Under the pieces are notes generated by a model, which ran no database searches, was not told the origin of the DNA, and saw only the letters and a list, made by a program, of their open reading frames with translations. The translations under genes were made by a program, and so were the position numbers. From Amycolatopsis jejuensis (GTDB taxonomy: Bacteria; Actinomycetota; Actinomycetes; Mycobacteriales; Pseudonocardiaceae), in the NCBI RefSeq assembly GCF_000717335.1, contig NZ_JNYZ01000012.1, positions 1 to 64,000 on the forward strand: DNA of 64,000 nt, given 5' to 3'. This document shows, in pieces, positions 53,151-60,696 of this stretch; the first letter of the stretch is position 1; each line of letters begins with the position of its first letter.

Positions 53151-54560
53151 CTATCCCGGCGTGTGAGTCCGTGCGGCAAGCTGGCGAAGGCCGGGTAGCG
53201 CGGCTTGCCAGGGGTGGTGCAGCAGGTCGGTGACGAGACGGCGGACGGTTGCCCTGGTGCGGACCTCGCCGGGCGCGGCCCGTTCGGCCGTCAGCAGCGC
53301 TTGATACGCACGGTCAGGCTTGTTCCATTGGGCGAAGCACAGGGCCACGTCGACGAGAAACCGCGCGCGGCGTTCGGTGTCGGGGAACTGGCCGAGCTGT
53401 GCAGCCTTGGCACGGTTCAGGGCGGAGCCGGCGTTGCCGAGGACGTAGTCGGCGGAAACGCGGTGGCTGATCACGTTGGCTGTCAGCGCGCGCTGCTCGG
53501 CCGGATGGTCTGTGAGCCGGGCAGCGGTCGTGTCAGCCTCGTTCAGGAAATCGGCGGTGCGGTCGTGGTCGCCGGCACGTGCCGAGGCATAGCCGGCCGA
53601 GCACATCAGGACCCCGTACAAGGTCAGATGCCGGGGATCGGGCGCCTTTCCGCGGAGGTCGAGCTGGTCTGCCGCGGTCAGGGTGAGTTCCCTGGCTCGC
53701 TCGTGGTGCCCGGCCCGCCGGCAGGCGGAGCCGAGCAGGCGCTGCGCTTCCGCGAGGGACAACGGGTCGCCCGCGGCCGCGGCGGCACGGAGAGCCCGGT
53801 CGGCGGAGATCCACTCCAGACCGCTGGCCTCCAGTTTGATCAACGCGCGGGTGGCGAGGCGGTATGCCCGCGCGACAGTGCCCGCCGTGACCGGATCCCC
53901 GGTCTGCCGGTGGGTGGCTTCGGCAGTGGTGATCAGTTCAGGCAGGCGCGCGGCCAGCTCCAAGTAGCGGCAGCCACGGAAGTCGGCGTGTGCGGCGGCA
54001 AGCACCGCCTGGAGCGTCGGGATCGGGACCGGCCGGGCTGCCGCGACGGAGTCGGTGAGGAGGACTCCTTCCAAGCGGCGGGTCAGGAACGCCGCCGAGT
54101 CGACCTCGATGGCGTTCGCGGCCTGGGCATTCGGCGCGCCGAACGGGGCACCGGCAGCAACGATGCTGCCGCCCGCGGCGAGCAGGAACGCGCGTCGTCG
54201 CACCGGATCATCCCTTTCCTGGCTCAAGTCGTGCCTCACCCTAGGAGCCGCCGTTGTCGAGTCAGGGGAGGCAGGCCGCGGCGTCGGCTCGTTCGTGAGA
54301 CCGAACGCTTCCACGGGCAAGGCGAGCACGGTCGCGAAGCGGCGCAGTACGACAAGGTCGCGGAGCCCGCGCCGGCCGTTCTCGAACCGGGAGATCGTGG
54401 AGGCTGAGCAGCCGAAACGTTCGCCGAGCTCGCCTTGGGACCAGCCGAGCTCCGCACGGGCGTGGCGCAGCACCGCCGGGTGATCACCGCGGCGCGCGGC
54501 GTCCCAGAGCGCAGGCGACCACCAGTCCGGCACGGCGTTCCCCTCGTCTTGTTGTCGCAC
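53151..54560 (-). CDS. XRE-family regulator with C-terminal TPR-like region
   Basis: Protein of 469 residues. The N-terminus has a Cro/CI helix-turn-helix ('ELGWSQGELGERFGCSASTI', 'RFENGRRGLRDLVVLRRFAT'). A basic stretch and a hydrophobic segment like a signal ('RRAFLLAAGGSIVAAGAPFG') follow, then a helical TPR-like domain of about 300 residues. Such regulators are common beside peptide and antibiotic clusters in actinomycetes. It is divergent from the graspetide genes across about 145 bases and is their likely controller. Confidence 0.88.
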   Translation of the reverse strand: MRQQDEGNAVPDWWSPALWDAARRGDHPAVLRHARAELGWSQGELGERFGCSASTISRFENGRRGLRDLVVLRRFATVLALPVEAFGLTNEPTPRPASPDSTTAAPRVRHDLSQERDDPVRRRAFLLAAGGSIVAAGAPFGAPNAQAANAIEVDSAAFLTRRLEGVLLTDSVAAARPVPIPTLQAVLAAAHADFRGCRYLELAARLPELITTAEATHRQTGDPVTAGTVARAYRLATRALIKLEASGLEWISADRALRAAAAAGDPLSLAEAQRLLGSACRRAGHHERARELTLTAADQLDLRGKAPDPRHLTLYGVLMCSAGYASARAGDHDRTADFLNEADTTAARLTDHPAEQRALTANVISHRVSADYVLGNAGSALNRAKAAQLGQFPDTERRARFLVDVALCFAQWNKPDRAYQALLTAERAAPGEVRTRATVRRLVTDLLHHPWQAALPGLRQLAARTHTPG

Positions 54561-54705
54561 CTACGGTAGCCGCTCGACTACGAATGCAACCACATTTGCG
54601 TGGTTGGCACATGCCGTGCAGATCCGGCACGACAGGCTTCTCGCCTGGTCAGCGCATTCCTACCGTCGAGGTAGGGCACCGCCGCAGAGAAGAAATGAGG
54701 AGATC

Positions 54706-55023
54706 ATGCTGACGACGATCGAGGGCCTCGAGCCGGAACCGGGCGCCAGCCCGCTGGCATCGGCGGCGTTGCGTTTCCTGGTGCGGCAGTCGGACCAGGC
54801 AGACCGGCCGGGTCCGGCTGCCACCCGTCCGTTCGGATTGAACGGCGCCACGCCGGTCGATCCGCCGGTTCGGCGGGAGTTCTGCTACTGCCCGGAGAAG
54901 CAGGTCGCGGTCGACGAGCACGGTCTTCCGTTGATCGAGACGATGGGCAAGGACTGGCGCACCAAATCGTCGACCGACGGCGACGAAGGCCCGGAGGAGA
55001 ACTGGGGCTGGGAAGAGGCATGA
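54706..55023 (+). CDS. tgmA: Graspetide (omega-ester) precursor peptide, TgmA-like
   Basis: Precursor of 105 residues for an ATP-grasp-modified peptide. The leader carries 'TRPFGLNGATPVD', the recognition motif of this precursor group, and 'KQVAVDEHGLPLIE' before the core. The C-terminal core (about 79-105) is rich in hydroxyl residues (Thr86, Ser88, Ser89, Thr90) and acidic ones (Asp91, Asp93, Glu94, Glu97, Glu98, Glu103, Glu104) that can form ester links. Asp91-Gly92 suits aspartimide formation. GAGGAG precedes the ATG; its stop overlaps the ligase start. Confidence 0.88.
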   Translation: MLTTIEGLEPEPGASPLASAALRFLVRQSDQADRPGPAATRPFGLNGATPVDPPVRREFCYCPEKQVAVDEHGLPLIETMGKDWRTKSSTDGDEGPEENWGWEEA

Positions 55024-56006
55024 CTCGAAATCCGGGAACGGTGGTGATCTTCGCCCAGGAAGCCGACGCGCCCGTGGACGCCGTCGTCCGCGAACTCGAC
55101 CGGCGCGGAGCAGCGGTGTTCCGCGCGGACACCGCCTGGTTTCCCCAGCGCTTGTCCCTGGACGCGCGCCTCGACCGCGACGGGCGCTGGCGCGGGATCC
55201 TGTGCACTGAACACCGTGCCGTCGCGCTGGAGGACATCGACGCGATCTGGTATCGCGATCCCTCGGCGTTCTCGTTCCCGGCCGCGCTGACCGAGGTCGA
55301 GCGTGCCTACGCCCATCGCGAGGCGCGGCTCGGCTTCGGCGGCGTGCTCGCCGCACTTCCGGTGCTCTGGGTCAATCACCCCAACCGCGCAGCCGACGCG
55401 ATGTTCAAGCCTCTCCAGCTGGCCACTGCCGCTGCCTGCGGGCTGCGCGTCCGGCCCACTCTGGTCACCAACTCGCCTGCCGCCGCGTCCCGCTTCGCCC
55501 GCGAGCACCGCACCGGCGGGACGGTCTGTAAGTCGTTCGGGCCGAACACGATCACCGAAGGCGGACAGCTCAAGGTCGCCTACACTCGTCGGCTCGGCGC
55601 CACCGACCTCGCCGCGCTGGACGGGGTCGCAACGACTGCCACTCAATTGCAGGGCTGGGTCGACAAGACGCATGAGGCGAGGGTCATCGTGATCGGCGAG
55701 CGGATGTTCACCATCACCATCACCGCGGATTCACCGTCGGCTCACGTCGACTGGCGGTCTGACTTCGCTGCGCTGCGCTACCGACTCGTCGACACGCCGC
55801 GTGAAGTGGAGAACGGATTGCGCCGCTACCTTGACAATCTGGACCTTGCTTATGCGGCAGTGGATTTCGCGATCGATCAGGACGGATTCTGTTTCCTCGA
55901 AAGCAATTCTTCCGGCCAGTACGGCTGGCTCGAAGCCCAGACCGGGGCGCCGCTCACTGCCGCGTTGGCCGACCTGCTCACCCGTCGCGCAAGGAGCCGC
56001 CCGTGA
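55020..56006 (+). CDS. tgmB: ATP-grasp ribosomal peptide maturase (graspetide ligase)
   Basis: ATP-grasp enzyme of 328 residues, the partner of the precursor just upstream. Recognisable parts are 'DIDAIWYRDPSAFSFP' near residue 80, 'VNHPNRAADAMFKPLQLATA', 'VCKSFGPNTITEGG' and the metal/ATP-binding 'DFAIDQDGFCFLESNSSGQY'. It activates acidic side chains in the core as acyl-phosphates and joins them to Ser/Thr as side-chain esters. Its ATG overlaps the precursor stop by four bases. Confidence 0.92.
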   Translation: MTRNPGTVVIFAQEADAPVDAVVRELDRRGAAVFRADTAWFPQRLSLDARLDRDGRWRGILCTEHRAVALEDIDAIWYRDPSAFSFPAALTEVERAYAHREARLGFGGVLAALPVLWVNHPNRAADAMFKPLQLATAAACGLRVRPTLVTNSPAAASRFAREHRTGGTVCKSFGPNTITEGGQLKVAYTRRLGATDLAALDGVATTATQLQGWVDKTHEARVIVIGERMFTITITADSPSAHVDWRSDFAALRYRLVDTPREVENGLRRYLDNLDLAYAAVDFAIDQDGFCFLESNSSGQYGWLEAQTGAPLTAALADLLTRRARSRP

Positions 56007-57115
56007 TCCATCCCGGCCTCGAGTGGAAGTCGCACGCCGCCCGGCTTGCCGATGATCTGATCGCCGCAGGCAAGCTGACCGATCCGCGGCTGGCCGACGC
56101 TGTCCGCGAGACACCGCGGCACGTGTTCGTCCCGGCCTACCACCGGCAAACCGCCGATGGCGGCTGGGCCGAGCACCGCAGCACGGACGATCTCGCCGCT
56201 GTCTACGCCAATACCGCCTTGATCACCGCGCTCACGCCGGAACGTGCGGTGCTTTCGTCGTCGACCCAACCGGGGCTGATGACTCGCATGATCGAATCAC
56301 TGCAGCTCGCCGACGGAATGCGGGTGCTGGAGATCGGCACCGGGACCGGCTACAACGCCGCCCTGCTGACGCACCTGCTCGGCGAGCGGAACGTGTTCTC
56401 CATCGACATCGAACCCGGTCTCGTCGAGCTGGCCCGCACACGGATACCCGGCCGTCCGACGCTCGTCACCGGCGACGGCGCGCAGGGACTGCCCGAGCAT
56501 GCTCCCTTCGACGCGATCATCGCGACCTGCGCAGTTCCTGCAATCCCGTGGCCCTGGATCGACCAGGTCCGGCCTGGCGGGGTGATCCTGGCCGATCTCA
56601 AGCCTGCGCCCGGCGCAGGCAGCCTGGTCCGTCTCACGAGGCAAGGTGACGGCGCCGAAGGACGTTTCGACCCCACGTACGCGGCATTCATGGATCTGCG
56701 TCCTGCGCCCGGCACCGCCGGATTCCGGGTCGAGCGAGGCCATGCGGAGTACCGCACCACCGACGTGGACCCGAACACCCCGTGGACGTCGTTGGTCACC
56801 TGGTTCATCGCATCATTCGACCTGGGATCCGAAATTGCTTACGGCTACACCTTTCCCGAAGGCTCAGCTGCGTCCTCGATCGCCACCCCGGACGGCTCCT
56901 GGGCCGAAATCACCCTCGCCGCCGAGAACGGACGGCACGCAGTCGCGGAAGGTGGGCCGCGTCGCCTCTGGCGTCTGGTCGAGGAAGCTCACCGTCTCTG
57001 GACCGATCTCGGCTGCCCGGGATGGGATCGCTTCGGCTTCACCGCTACGCCGCAAGCGCAAACCGTCTCGCTCGATGGCGGTCACTCCTGGCGAGTCACC
57101 GGCGGACCGGAGTAA
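56003..57115 (+). CDS. tgmC: Protein-L-isoaspartate O-methyltransferase homologue of the graspetide cluster
   Basis: SAM-dependent enzyme of 370 residues: a PIMT catalytic domain ('PRHVFVPAYHRQT', 'VLSSSTQPGLMTRMIESLQ', 'MRVLEIGTGTGYNAALLTHL') with a C-terminal extension. In aspartimidylated graspetides (fuscimiditide, amycolimiditide) this partner methylates one core Asp, which then cyclises to an aspartimide. The GTG overlaps the ligase stop (GTGA). Its last 34 bases overlap the convergent SnoaL gene. Confidence 0.9.
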   Translation: MIHPGLEWKSHAARLADDLIAAGKLTDPRLADAVRETPRHVFVPAYHRQTADGGWAEHRSTDDLAAVYANTALITALTPERAVLSSSTQPGLMTRMIESLQLADGMRVLEIGTGTGYNAALLTHLLGERNVFSIDIEPGLVELARTRIPGRPTLVTGDGAQGLPEHAPFDAIIATCAVPAIPWPWIDQVRPGGVILADLKPAPGAGSLVRLTRQGDGAEGRFDPTYAAFMDLRPAPGTAGFRVERGHAEYRTTDVDPNTPWTSLVTWFIASFDLGSEIAYGYTFPEGSAASSIATPDGSWAEITLAAENGRHAVAEGGPRRLWRLVEEAHRLWTDLGCPGWDRFGFTATPQAQTVSLDGGHSWRVTGGPE

Positions 57116-59092: not shown

Positions 59093-59509
59093 TCAGTTCC
59101 CGTGTTTGCCGGGGGCGGCACTGCCCGTGTACTCGTTGAGGCCGGAAACCAGGTCGGCGATCTCGGGCTTGTTCTCGTACCGGCGCCGGTGGATGTCGGC
59201 GATCTTGGCGCCCACCTCCGGGTCCGGGTCGTCGGTGACGTCGTAGGACACGAACTTGTCGACGATCGGCAGCCCGGACCGGTCCATCGCCAGGTGCGCC
59301 GGGTGGTTCATGTACACCTCGTACGCCTCGAGGTCCTCGAGCACCGTGACGGCGCCGTATTCGTATTCCCCGCCGAAATCGGGGCCGACGACGCGGTGCT
59401 TGATGACCGGAATGGCGTTGATGTGGTCCCGCATCTGGGCGAGCCGGGCCGTTTTGTCCTCCTCGGAGACACCGGGCTTGAGAGTGAACCGGATGCAGTG
59501 GTAGATCAT
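59093..59509 (-). CDS. Dabb-family (stress-responsive alpha/beta barrel) protein
   Basis: Protein of 138 residues with a ferredoxin-like dimeric barrel: 'MIYHCIRFTLKPGVSEEDKT', 'HRVVGPDFGGEYEYGAVTVL' and 'EAYEVYMNHPAHLAMD', the last holding the conserved histidines. Dabb proteins are often small cyclases or stress proteins. AGGAAG lies before the ATG, which overlaps the stop of the MFS gene upstream by four bases. Confidence 0.85.
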   Translation of the reverse strand: MIYHCIRFTLKPGVSEEDKTARLAQMRDHINAIPVIKHRVVGPDFGGEYEYGAVTVLEDLEAYEVYMNHPAHLAMDRSGLPIVDKFVSYDVTDDPDPEVGAKIADIHRRRYENKPEIADLVSGLNEYTGSAAPGKHGN

Positions 59510-60696
59510 CGGATCTTCCTTTCGGTGCGGATACGGAATCCGGCCGCGGCGAGTGCCGCGCCGGTGACCATGGCGATCCCGGCCGTCGTGAAGGCGCCAC
59601 CGACGCCGACGGCCTCGATCAGGGGCTGGATGAGCAGCGGGGACAGGAACTGGCCGAGGAAGATCCCGGAGACGAGCCCGCTGAGGACGCGGCCCCGCCA
59701 CGCCGGTGCGGCGAGCTCGGACAGCCGCAGGGTGACGTTGGGGACCGAAAGCCCGAGCCCGGCGCCGCCGACGAGCAGCCCGGCCGCGGTACCCAGCACG
59801 GAGTCGGTGCTGCCGATCAGCAGCCAGCCCGCGCCCAGCAGTGCGACGGCGCCGGTGATGATCGCGGTGAACCCCAAGCGCTTGCGTACCACCGGAAACG
59901 CCAGCGCACCGAGCAGGCTGCTCAGGGTGCTTCCGGCGAGGACGACACCCACGACCGCGGGCCCGACGCCGAGACTCTCCAGCCGGAACGGCACCTGGGT
60001 CGGCGCCATGTAGAAGAGCACGGTCACGCCGAGCGCGAGCAGGTAGATGCCGAACACCCGGCCGAGCGTGCCGCGGGTCGCCGGCGCATCGGGGGCAACC
60101 GCGGCAGCCGTTTCGCGTGGCCGGTCCTGCACTGACAGAATCGCGAACAGCGCGACCACCGCGGCGAGGCTGTACAGCCAGAACGGCACCCGCCAGCTGA
60201 TCGTCGCGAGCACACCGGCCAGCGGCAGGAACACGACGCCACCGAGGCTTGCGAAAGCCTGTTGCAGGCCAAGGAAAGCGGCCCGCTTCGGTCCGTCGAA
60301 CCAGTCGGCGACCGTCGAGCTGACCGCCGTCATCACCCCGCCGATGGCGATGCCGAGCACCGCGCGGGTCGCCACCAGGACGTAGAGATCGGTGACGAAG
60401 AACCCGGCGGTGCCACTGATCGCGTACAGCAGGAGCGCCGTCACCAATAGCGGACGGCGTCCGGCGCGATCGGCGATCAGTCCGGACAGCGGGGCGCTGA
60501 CGGCGATCATCAGCGACGTGATCGTCATCGCGAGCCGGACCAGCAGGGCAGCTCCCGGCTCGGCGGCGAAGACCTGCTCCATCGTCGGCAGGCTGGGCGA
60601 GACGACCGCGGGCGCCATGATCGTCAGCATCGCCGCGGCGAGGATCGTGCCGCGGGCGAGGCGGCGCGGCGCTCTGCGATCGGCTTGCGTTGTCAT
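59506..60696 (-). CDS. MFS transporter, probable drug efflux
   Basis: Membrane transporter of 396 residues with twelve hydrophobic segments. It has the MFS motif A 'LSGLIADRAGRRPLLVTALL' after helix 2, 'TRAVLGIAIGGVMTAVSS' at helix 4, and 'SLPTMEQVFAAEPGAALLVR' early on. The arrangement suits export of small toxic or signalling compounds. It is coupled to the Dabb gene. Substrate unknown. Confidence 0.9.
   Translation of the reverse strand: MTTQADRRAPRRLARGTILAAAMLTIMAPAVVSPSLPTMEQVFAAEPGAALLVRLAMTITSLMIAVSAPLSGLIADRAGRRPLLVTALLLYAISGTAGFFVTDLYVLVATRAVLGIAIGGVMTAVSSTVADWFDGPKRAAFLGLQQAFASLGGVVFLPLAGVLATISWRVPFWLYSLAAVVALFAILSVQDRPRETAAAVAPDAPATRGTLGRVFGIYLLALGVTVLFYMAPTQVPFRLESLGVGPAVVGVVLAGSTLSSLLGALAFPVVRKRLGFTAIITGAVALLGAGWLLIGSTDSVLGTAAGLLVGGAGLGLSVPNVTLRLSELAAPAWRGRVLSGLVSGIFLGQFLSPLLIQPLIEAVGVGGAFTTAGIAMVTGAALAAAGFRIRTERKIR

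Follow-up and report, generated by a model that had tools for sequence, protein, structure and literature searches.

Introduction

Graspimiditides, the group 13 graspetides, are ribosomally synthesized and post-translationally modified peptides (RiPPs) that carry side-chain cross-links together with an aspartimide. Between 962 and 1432 such clusters have been predicted in surveys and four products have been made (PMC13001092). These four products, fuscimiditide, amycolimiditide, SsfA(BM) and albusimiditide, are described with Thr-Asp esters only, two to five in each, and in all four a Gly follows the methylated Asp (PMC13001092). Graspimiditide loops have a published size of 10-12 residues (PMC12291112), and amycolimiditide is a stem-loop with the aspartimide in its loop (PMC12291112, PMC13001092). 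The tetrapeptide RPFG has been identified as the ligase recognition sequence for fuscimiditide (PMC13003496), and the protein isoaspartyl methyltransferases (PIMTs) of RiPP clusters have been described with an additional C-terminal domain and a WxxxGxP motif (PMC13001092, PMC10787088). In this study we describe a candidate member of this group from Amycolatopsis jejuensis (Pseudonocardiaceae), located at positions 54706-57115 of the first 64,000 nucleotides of contig NZ_JNYZ01000012.1 (assembly GCF_000717335.1), a stretch that we refer to as a whole as the window.

Three genes in the window very probably direct the synthesis of a ring-closed peptide, a graspetide carrying an aspartimide. We consider it likely that they constitute a complete graspimiditide cluster, with both esters and an aspartimide predicted in the product. 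The class is a known one and the locus is an ordinary member of a large predicted group. The product is not among the four characterised graspimiditides, which in the case of albusimiditide follows by inference from its Thr-Asp esters. What the window contributes is a chemically uncharacterised, near-fixed core.

Results

Gene set and class assignment

The three genes lie on the forward strand with all frames open. They encode a graspetide precursor (54706-55023, ATG start, TGA stop, 105 aa, composed of a leader and a C-terminal core), an ATP-grasp ligase or graspetide synthetase (55020-56006, ATG start, 328 aa) and a PIMT-type O-methyltransferase (PAMT; 56003-57115, GTG start, 370 aa, with an additional C-terminal domain). 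Adjacent genes overlap by four bases, ATGA at the precursor/ligase junction and GTGA at the ligase/methyltransferase junction. A preliminary description of this DNA had placed the genes at these positions with such overlaps, had called them an aspartimidylated graspetide cluster and had pointed to a PFGLN leader motif. Positions and overlaps are both read in the sequence, the class assignment draws support from the family models, the leader motif, the architecture of the domains and the order of the genes, and the motif is present in the longer form RPFGLN (residues 41-46, 54826-54843). On the model scores given below, the gene set stands well beyond chance.

The precursor scores 39.3 bits against TIGR04186 and 30.4 bits against PF14408 (cut-off 25 for each) and has homologues of similar length. 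Its calculated monoisotopic mass as an untagged linear chain is 11442.52. Its leader motif contains the RPFG tetrapeptide (residues 41-44), which is well conserved, with R41 and P42 each present in 100 of 101 aligned homologues, F43 in 90 and G44 in 95. This alignment was obtained after an acidic-tail filter had removed 19 of 120 rows, and counts at residues 102-104 are partly by construction. No graspetide was among the matches when the whole precursor was searched against the PDB.

The ligase reaches 389.7 bits with TIGR04187 (cut-off 350) and is the single match to this model in the genome at E <= 0.001. Its predicted fold (mean predicted local distance difference test score 89.7) matches MdnC, CdnC, PruB and PsnB, with E <= 5e-28 for the first three. 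Residues K130, K171, R221, D282, E294 and N296, which we take to be ATP/Mg-binding, are all intact and invariant across 20 sequences, the window's included. Among the named ligases found, those of Amycolatopsis antarctica and A. rubida come closest, at 83-84% identity. Two other classes were considered and do not fit. An imiditide or pamtide cluster, a two-gene arrangement with a PIMT as sole enzyme, would have no ligase gene between precursor and methyltransferase, and a microviridin cluster (group 1) would have two ligases of the MvdC and MvdD kinds, whereas the genome holds a single TIGR04187 match. The window's ligase scores 167.9 bits with the MvdD model (475 required) and 139.9 bits with the MvdC model (425 required).

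The order of ligase and methyltransferase recurs in relatives, as a homologue of the window's methyltransferase lies downstream of the ligase on the same strand in 77 of the 80 ligase loci fetched from family genomes, mostly the best-ranked matches of a longer list. The loci where no match to the window's methyltransferase was seen are L067, L093 and L094, the latter two being sisters in the ligase tree that have an unusual core in common (GTSSGGTD..TGDEEMDFHQPD). At locus L087, about 1.6 kb past the first set, there is a second ligase-like open reading frame (ORF; 188 aa as called) along with a second methyltransferase ORF.

The methyltransferase

The third protein matches PF01135 with 111 bits (cut-off 20.3) and contains the motifs GTGTG (residues 112-116) and WTDLGCP (residues 333-339), the latter conforming to WxxxGxP. 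In the structure model residues 249-335 form a C-terminal domain ordered beta-alpha-beta4-alpha. Its best fold match in the PDB is 1DL5, the PIMT of T. maritima, which has a C-terminal extension of such a kind (PMC13001092). The whole-chain comparison gave template modeling scores of 0.54/0.63 and a root mean square deviation of 8.0, values which indicate that the two domains cannot be overlaid together as a single body. The C-terminal domain and the overlap within the operon led us to reject a housekeeping repair PIMT.

Two scores speak against this assignment. The protein obtains 334 bits with TIGR04188 and does not reach the cut-off of 380, which is an NCBI naming threshold and, in the accessible portions of the graspimiditide literature cited, is not treated as a defining feature of the group. 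Additionally, an orphan TIGR04188-like protein encoded elsewhere in the genome outscores it (377.6 bits, also below the cut-off). The assignment of the methyltransferase therefore rests on context and architecture.

The orphan is a RiPP-type PIMT of 382 aa (L007:1447-2595; C12:227464-228531 of the same genome). It has no adjoining ligase, no precursor was recognised there among ORFs of at least 50 aa, and a divergent ORF resembling a helix-turn-helix (HTH) regulator adjoins it. A further TIGR04188-like stretch in this genome (L009; C11:6679-7764; 175.8 bits) has one internal TGA and is apparently degenerate.

Conservation and distribution of the core

The C-terminal core block (residues 82-105, KDWRTKSSTDGDEGPEENWGWEEA; 54949-55020) is near-invariant in homologues. 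A search with the precursor protein returned 146 matches, of which the best 120, one of them the window's own, were examined; since these are ranked by likeness to the window's precursor, conservation among them is biased upward. Apart from a few exceptions, their aligned tails follow K-[DE]-W-x-[TS]-K-x-x-[ST]-DGDEG-x-EE-x-WGWEE, and the anchored core pattern fits 118 of the 119 other proteins. From 119 of the 120 rows, P0074 being outside the pattern, we derived 89 distinct tails to which the tail counts below refer; the pattern itself fixes K82, K87 and GDEG, and the 119 rows include fragments and one frameshifted tail.

A profile built from 24 such precursors was used to follow this core through related genomes, with 16 candidates scored per genome in the family and 12 in the class, such that all counts are lower bounds. 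In the family at least 57 of 297 genomes have a match at E <= 1e-6, the weaker ones being other group 13 cores. At least 18 of the 297, the window's included, exceed 100 bits; this core type is present in every one of the 18, in L074 with the leader in another frame than the core. In the class at least 2 of 394 genomes match, namely the window's own and one weak match of 36 bits. A ligase tree was calculated from 82 of 86 loci, leaving out L001 and L002 (copies of L052 and L056) and L003 and L123 (partial). In this tree the 16 rows with the window-type core form one clade together with L073 (support 100/96), next to which stand L089/L090 (weak support, 89/65) and then L109/L118 (97/85); L137/L138 were not placed.

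The core is under purifying selection. When the codons of the window's core were compared with those of 15 others, the proportion of nonsynonymous differences (pN, 0.04-0.28) was below that of synonymous differences (pS, 0.38-1.01) in 15 of 15 comparisons, each covering 23 codons; the comparisons are not independent, and the pattern used to pick the 16 core loci itself predetermines many core positions. This result, together with three open frames and intact motifs in the window, makes it very improbable that the genes are decaying or silent and yield no product. Such a reading would draw on L073 and L074, where the leader is missing or not in frame with the core, on L123, where the methyltransferase is kept and neither a precursor nor the ligase N-terminus was detected (assembly errors are possible at all three loci), and on a promoter scan that found no sigma-70 consensus (0.3 expected).

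The preliminary description had regarded the core as distinct and the product as possibly new. The core does differ from the characterised graspimiditides, but it is not peculiar to this strain, being common to at least 18 of the 297 family genomes and to 118 of the 119 listed homologues. A full-text literature search with pieces of the core returned nothing relevant, figures and supplements being outside the search, and published surveys of group 13 may well include a core of this type.

Candidate reactive residues

The Asp91-Gly92 pair (54976-54981), already proposed as the aspartimide site in the preliminary description, is likely to be the position of methylation and aspartimide formation; Asp91 is kept in 87 of the 89 distinct tails, and the proposal stands as a prediction. 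In two database proteins, P0068 and P0082, this Asp is replaced by Glu or Asn (TEGDEG, TNGDEG), which may be natural variants or sequencing errors.

Candidate hydroxyl donors are Thr86 (54961-54963), where Thr or Ser occurs in 89/89 tails and in 100 of the 101 aligned rows, and Thr90 (54973-54975), where it occurs in 88/89. The window's core holds Ser/Thr at Thr86, Ser88, Ser89 and Thr90, with Thr79 just upstream; a hydroxyl is found at position 88 in 50 and at position 89 in 57 of the 89 tails. Thus two hydroxyls are conserved and not four. The earlier count of four Ser/Thr is true of the window's sequence, yet it overstates the number of cross-links given that only 86 and 90 are conserved. 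By the same token we regard as quite improbable an amycolimiditide-like stem in which Thr86, Ser88, Ser89 and Thr90 would form four esters. Four Ser/Thr in the core and four cross-links in amycolimiditide (PMC12291112) invite that comparison, but the variable occupancy of positions 88 and 89 argues against it, as does the lack of association between a hydroxyl at 88 and an acid at 99 (Fisher p = 0.83).

As the window's core has no Asp after Asp93, Glu residues should serve as ester acceptors, and among the 89 tails it is Glu that stands at the strongly conserved acidic positions beyond D93/E94. The acceptor candidates are Glu97-Glu98 (54994-54999), with an acid at 97 in 87/89 and Glu at 98 in 88/89 tails, and Glu103-Glu104 (55012-55017), with 79/89 tails ending in EE or in EE plus one residue. 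The window's core presents conserved Ser/Thr (Thr86, Thr90) before an aspartimide-suited Asp91 and conserved Glu (97, 98, 103 and 104) after it. It lacks the Asp acceptors known from the four characterised members and has Asn99 at +8 and Glu103 at +12 from Asp91; Asp acceptors are a feature of the known products that the accessible portions of the literature cited do not state to be group-defining.

Ring pairing and the role of lysine

Counted from its single loop Asp, the fuscimiditide chain (PDB 7LI2/7LIF; ring pairs from PMC12291112) has Thr at -7 and -3, and its Asp residues follow at +8 and +12. An acid at position 99 (+8) is found in 35 of the 89 window-type tails and shows no association with a hydroxyl at position 88 (-3), for which the same Fisher test applies. 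Hydroxyls at 89 and in 78-81 do go with the absence of an acid at 99 (p = 3e-7 and 1e-4), which we read as subfamily structure. In the neighbouring clade of the tree Asp occurs at +8, +9, +12 and +13 in 42% each (precursors were found in 31 of 32). The Asn at +8, the Glu at +12 and the lack of a -3/+8 association suggest that the cross-link register of the window's core is probably shifted relative to fuscimiditide.

Two pairings are candidates. A Thr86-Glu97/98 ring would enclose 10-11 residues, in agreement with the published loops of 10-12, with Asp91 inside and would leave Thr90 without a nested partner. Alternatively, a nested arrangement of Thr90-Glu97/98 and Thr86-Glu103/104 would enclose 6-7 and 16-17 residues.

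A number of observations weigh against a Thr-to-Glu graspimiditide core as proposed here. Thr86, Thr90 and the Glu pairs are off the fuscimiditide register, and the Thr90-Glu97/98 ring of 6-7 residues compares with the published 10-12. Only 3 of the 6 sister cores retain a hydroxyl at -1. An Asp occurs after position 94 in 47 of the 89 tails of the subclass, such that Glu-only acceptors hold for the window and not for all relatives. Finally, K82 (101/101 aligned homologues) and K87 (100/101; 54964-54966) are as invariant as the hydroxyls, and our preferred reading assigns a role to neither.

The invariance of these lysines raises the alternative that Lys87 (or Lys82) is also, or instead, joined to an acid, either as a KxxxD isopeptide or within a microviridin-like ester/amide cage. 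K87-SST-D91 fits KxxxD, and CorB, a ligase listed under TIGR04187, makes a Lys-Asp isopeptide in such a motif (PMC13097080). Microviridin also has its Lys6, Ser9, Asp10, Glu12 and Glu/Asp13 (linkages from PMC9826346) at the same intervals as K-x-x-[ST]-D-x-acid-acid, but its Thr is shifted by one residue. In sequence of this kind, short motifs may also turn up by chance. We regard this alternative as unlikely, as descriptions of the four characterised graspimiditides give Thr-Asp esters as the sole cross-links (PMC13001092), an Asp91 already bound in an amide or ester would not be available to form the aspartimide, and none of the 6 sister cores has Lys at -4 while a hydroxyl is found at -5 in 5/6 and at -1 in 3/6. 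Slightly more doubtful still is a specific form of it, a graspimiditide subclass that combines Glu acceptors with Lys87 (perhaps Lys82) as an amide donor beside one or more Thr esters and the aspartimide. If lysine were used, then ester, amide and aspartimide would occur together in one short peptide.

Proposed pathway

Under the preferred Thr-to-Glu reading, the ligase would bind the RPFG motif in the precursor's leader, use ATP to phosphorylate Glu carboxylates in the C-terminal core and join these carboxylates to Thr hydroxyls. About two esters (-36 Da) would be formed, with Thr86 and Thr90 as donors and two residues among Glu97/98 and Glu103/104 as acceptors, a connectivity that we infer. 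The methyltransferase would then recognise the ring-closed core and methylate Asp91, the methyl ester of which would collapse onto the Gly92 amide to give the aspartimide (-18 Da), and this may hydrolyse to isoaspartate (isoAsp). A host protease would remove the leader; no protease was found among the neighbours examined.

An isoAsp or mixed Asp/isoAsp peptide might also be the end product, with the aspartimide as an intermediate. This concerns the last step only and is compatible with the preferred reading. For SsfA(BM), a mixture of isoAsp and Asp forms was isolated (PMC10787088, PMC13001092) and the fuscimiditide aspartimide hydrolyses to 95% isoAsp (PMC13001092), but each of the remaining three characterised graspimiditides still contained its aspartimide after purification (PMC13001092). 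The sequence does not discriminate between these outcomes, and we hold an isoAsp end product to be possible if somewhat doubtful.

Regulation and neighbouring genes

Divergent from the cluster is a gene for an XRE-type regulator (53151-54560, reverse strand; HTH_31, PF13560), a candidate cluster regulator. Of the 15 other core loci, 4 (L052, L054, L055 and L056) have a homologue, 58-77% identical, that is likewise divergent and adjacent to the cluster; none was found at the cluster in the remaining 11. XRE-type pairs (DUF397/DUF5753) have been reported near group 13 clusters (PMC13097080); neither domain was found in the window's XRE gene.

The intergenic region (54561-54705) is a candidate promoter and operator region that contains blocks conserved in an alignment of 5 loci. 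Blocks common to L052, L055 and L056 lie around TTTGCGTGGTTGGCACA and CCTACCGTCG and are a candidate operator and -10 element. The region and its flanks (54560-54720) hold no repeats of 12 bases or more, two terminator-like elements were found (1.1 expected), and an Rfam search gave no match. A gene for an MFS transporter (59506-60696) lies 2.4 kb beyond the cluster, and nothing ties this transporter to it.

Discussion

The connection of aspartimidylated RiPPs to a biological function has been named as the main open challenge in this field (PMC13001092). As the core described here is near-constant across genera and under purifying selection it offers a good handle on that question, for one product could stand for the whole subclass. 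In the doubtful reading with lysine as an amide donor, the near-fixed core across the Pseudonocardiaceae would be a hint of a conserved function, for instance in signalling, and not of a variable weapon. The window's core would also serve to test whether this group of ligases accepts Glu (and Lys), in comparison with the Thr-Asp pairs known so far.

Among the described systems, the fuscimiditide locus of Thermobifida fusca (ThfA/ThfB/ThfM) resembles the window in its precursor, ATP-grasp ligase and PIMT homologue, in its RPFG leader and in a C-terminal core with an Asp-Gly flanked by Thr and acids. Both cores have hydroxyls four apart, Thr3/Thr7 in fuscimiditide and Thr86/Thr90 in the window. 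In contrast, the fuscimiditide acceptors Asp18 and Asp22, at +8 and +12 from loop Asp10, have Asn99 and Glu103 as their counterparts, and beyond Asp-Gly the two cores have little in common. The amycolimiditide genes of Amycolatopsis cihanbeyliensis (AmdA/AmdB/AmdM) are of the same kinds and come from the same genus. Their product is described with a 29-residue core and four Thr-Asp esters (PMC13001092), whereas the window's core, with one Asp (Asp93) after its Asp-Gly site, cannot form four such esters. The core is thus separated from fuscimiditide by sequence and from amycolimiditide by acid content as judged from the published description, in line with the difference from both that the preliminary description had expected; two other core types from the fetched loci did not lead to the amycolimiditide chain.

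SsfA(BM) from Streptomyces sp. F-3 and albusimiditide from Streptomyces albus J1074 likewise come from the group 13 gene set and have Thr-Asp esters and an Asp-Gly modified by a PIMT. The last 12 residues of SsfA contain four Asp and no Glu, whereas those of the window contain five Glu and no Asp; the difference from albusimiditide is inferred only from its Thr-Asp esters, of which there are at least two (PMC13001092). The corallotide system (CorA/CorB, group 15) has a ligase that is also listed under TIGR04187 and a Lys-x-x-x-Asp motif like that of the window (PMC13097080), but its precursor is long and repeated, its expressed set has oxygenase and beta-lactamase genes instead of a PIMT gene, and its linkage is an isopeptide and not an ester. 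Sister cores from the Pseudonocardiaceae (L089/L090, L109, L118, L137 and L138) have the same leader type and Asp-Gly. Those of L089/L090 read DGDEGPSEDWGND with Asp at +8 and +12 as in fuscimiditide, while those of L137/L138 (KDWTTTDYSTDGED..SSEEFGWEE) are intermediate, in that they lack Lys87 but retain the GWEE tail and both hydroxyls, at -5 and at -1.

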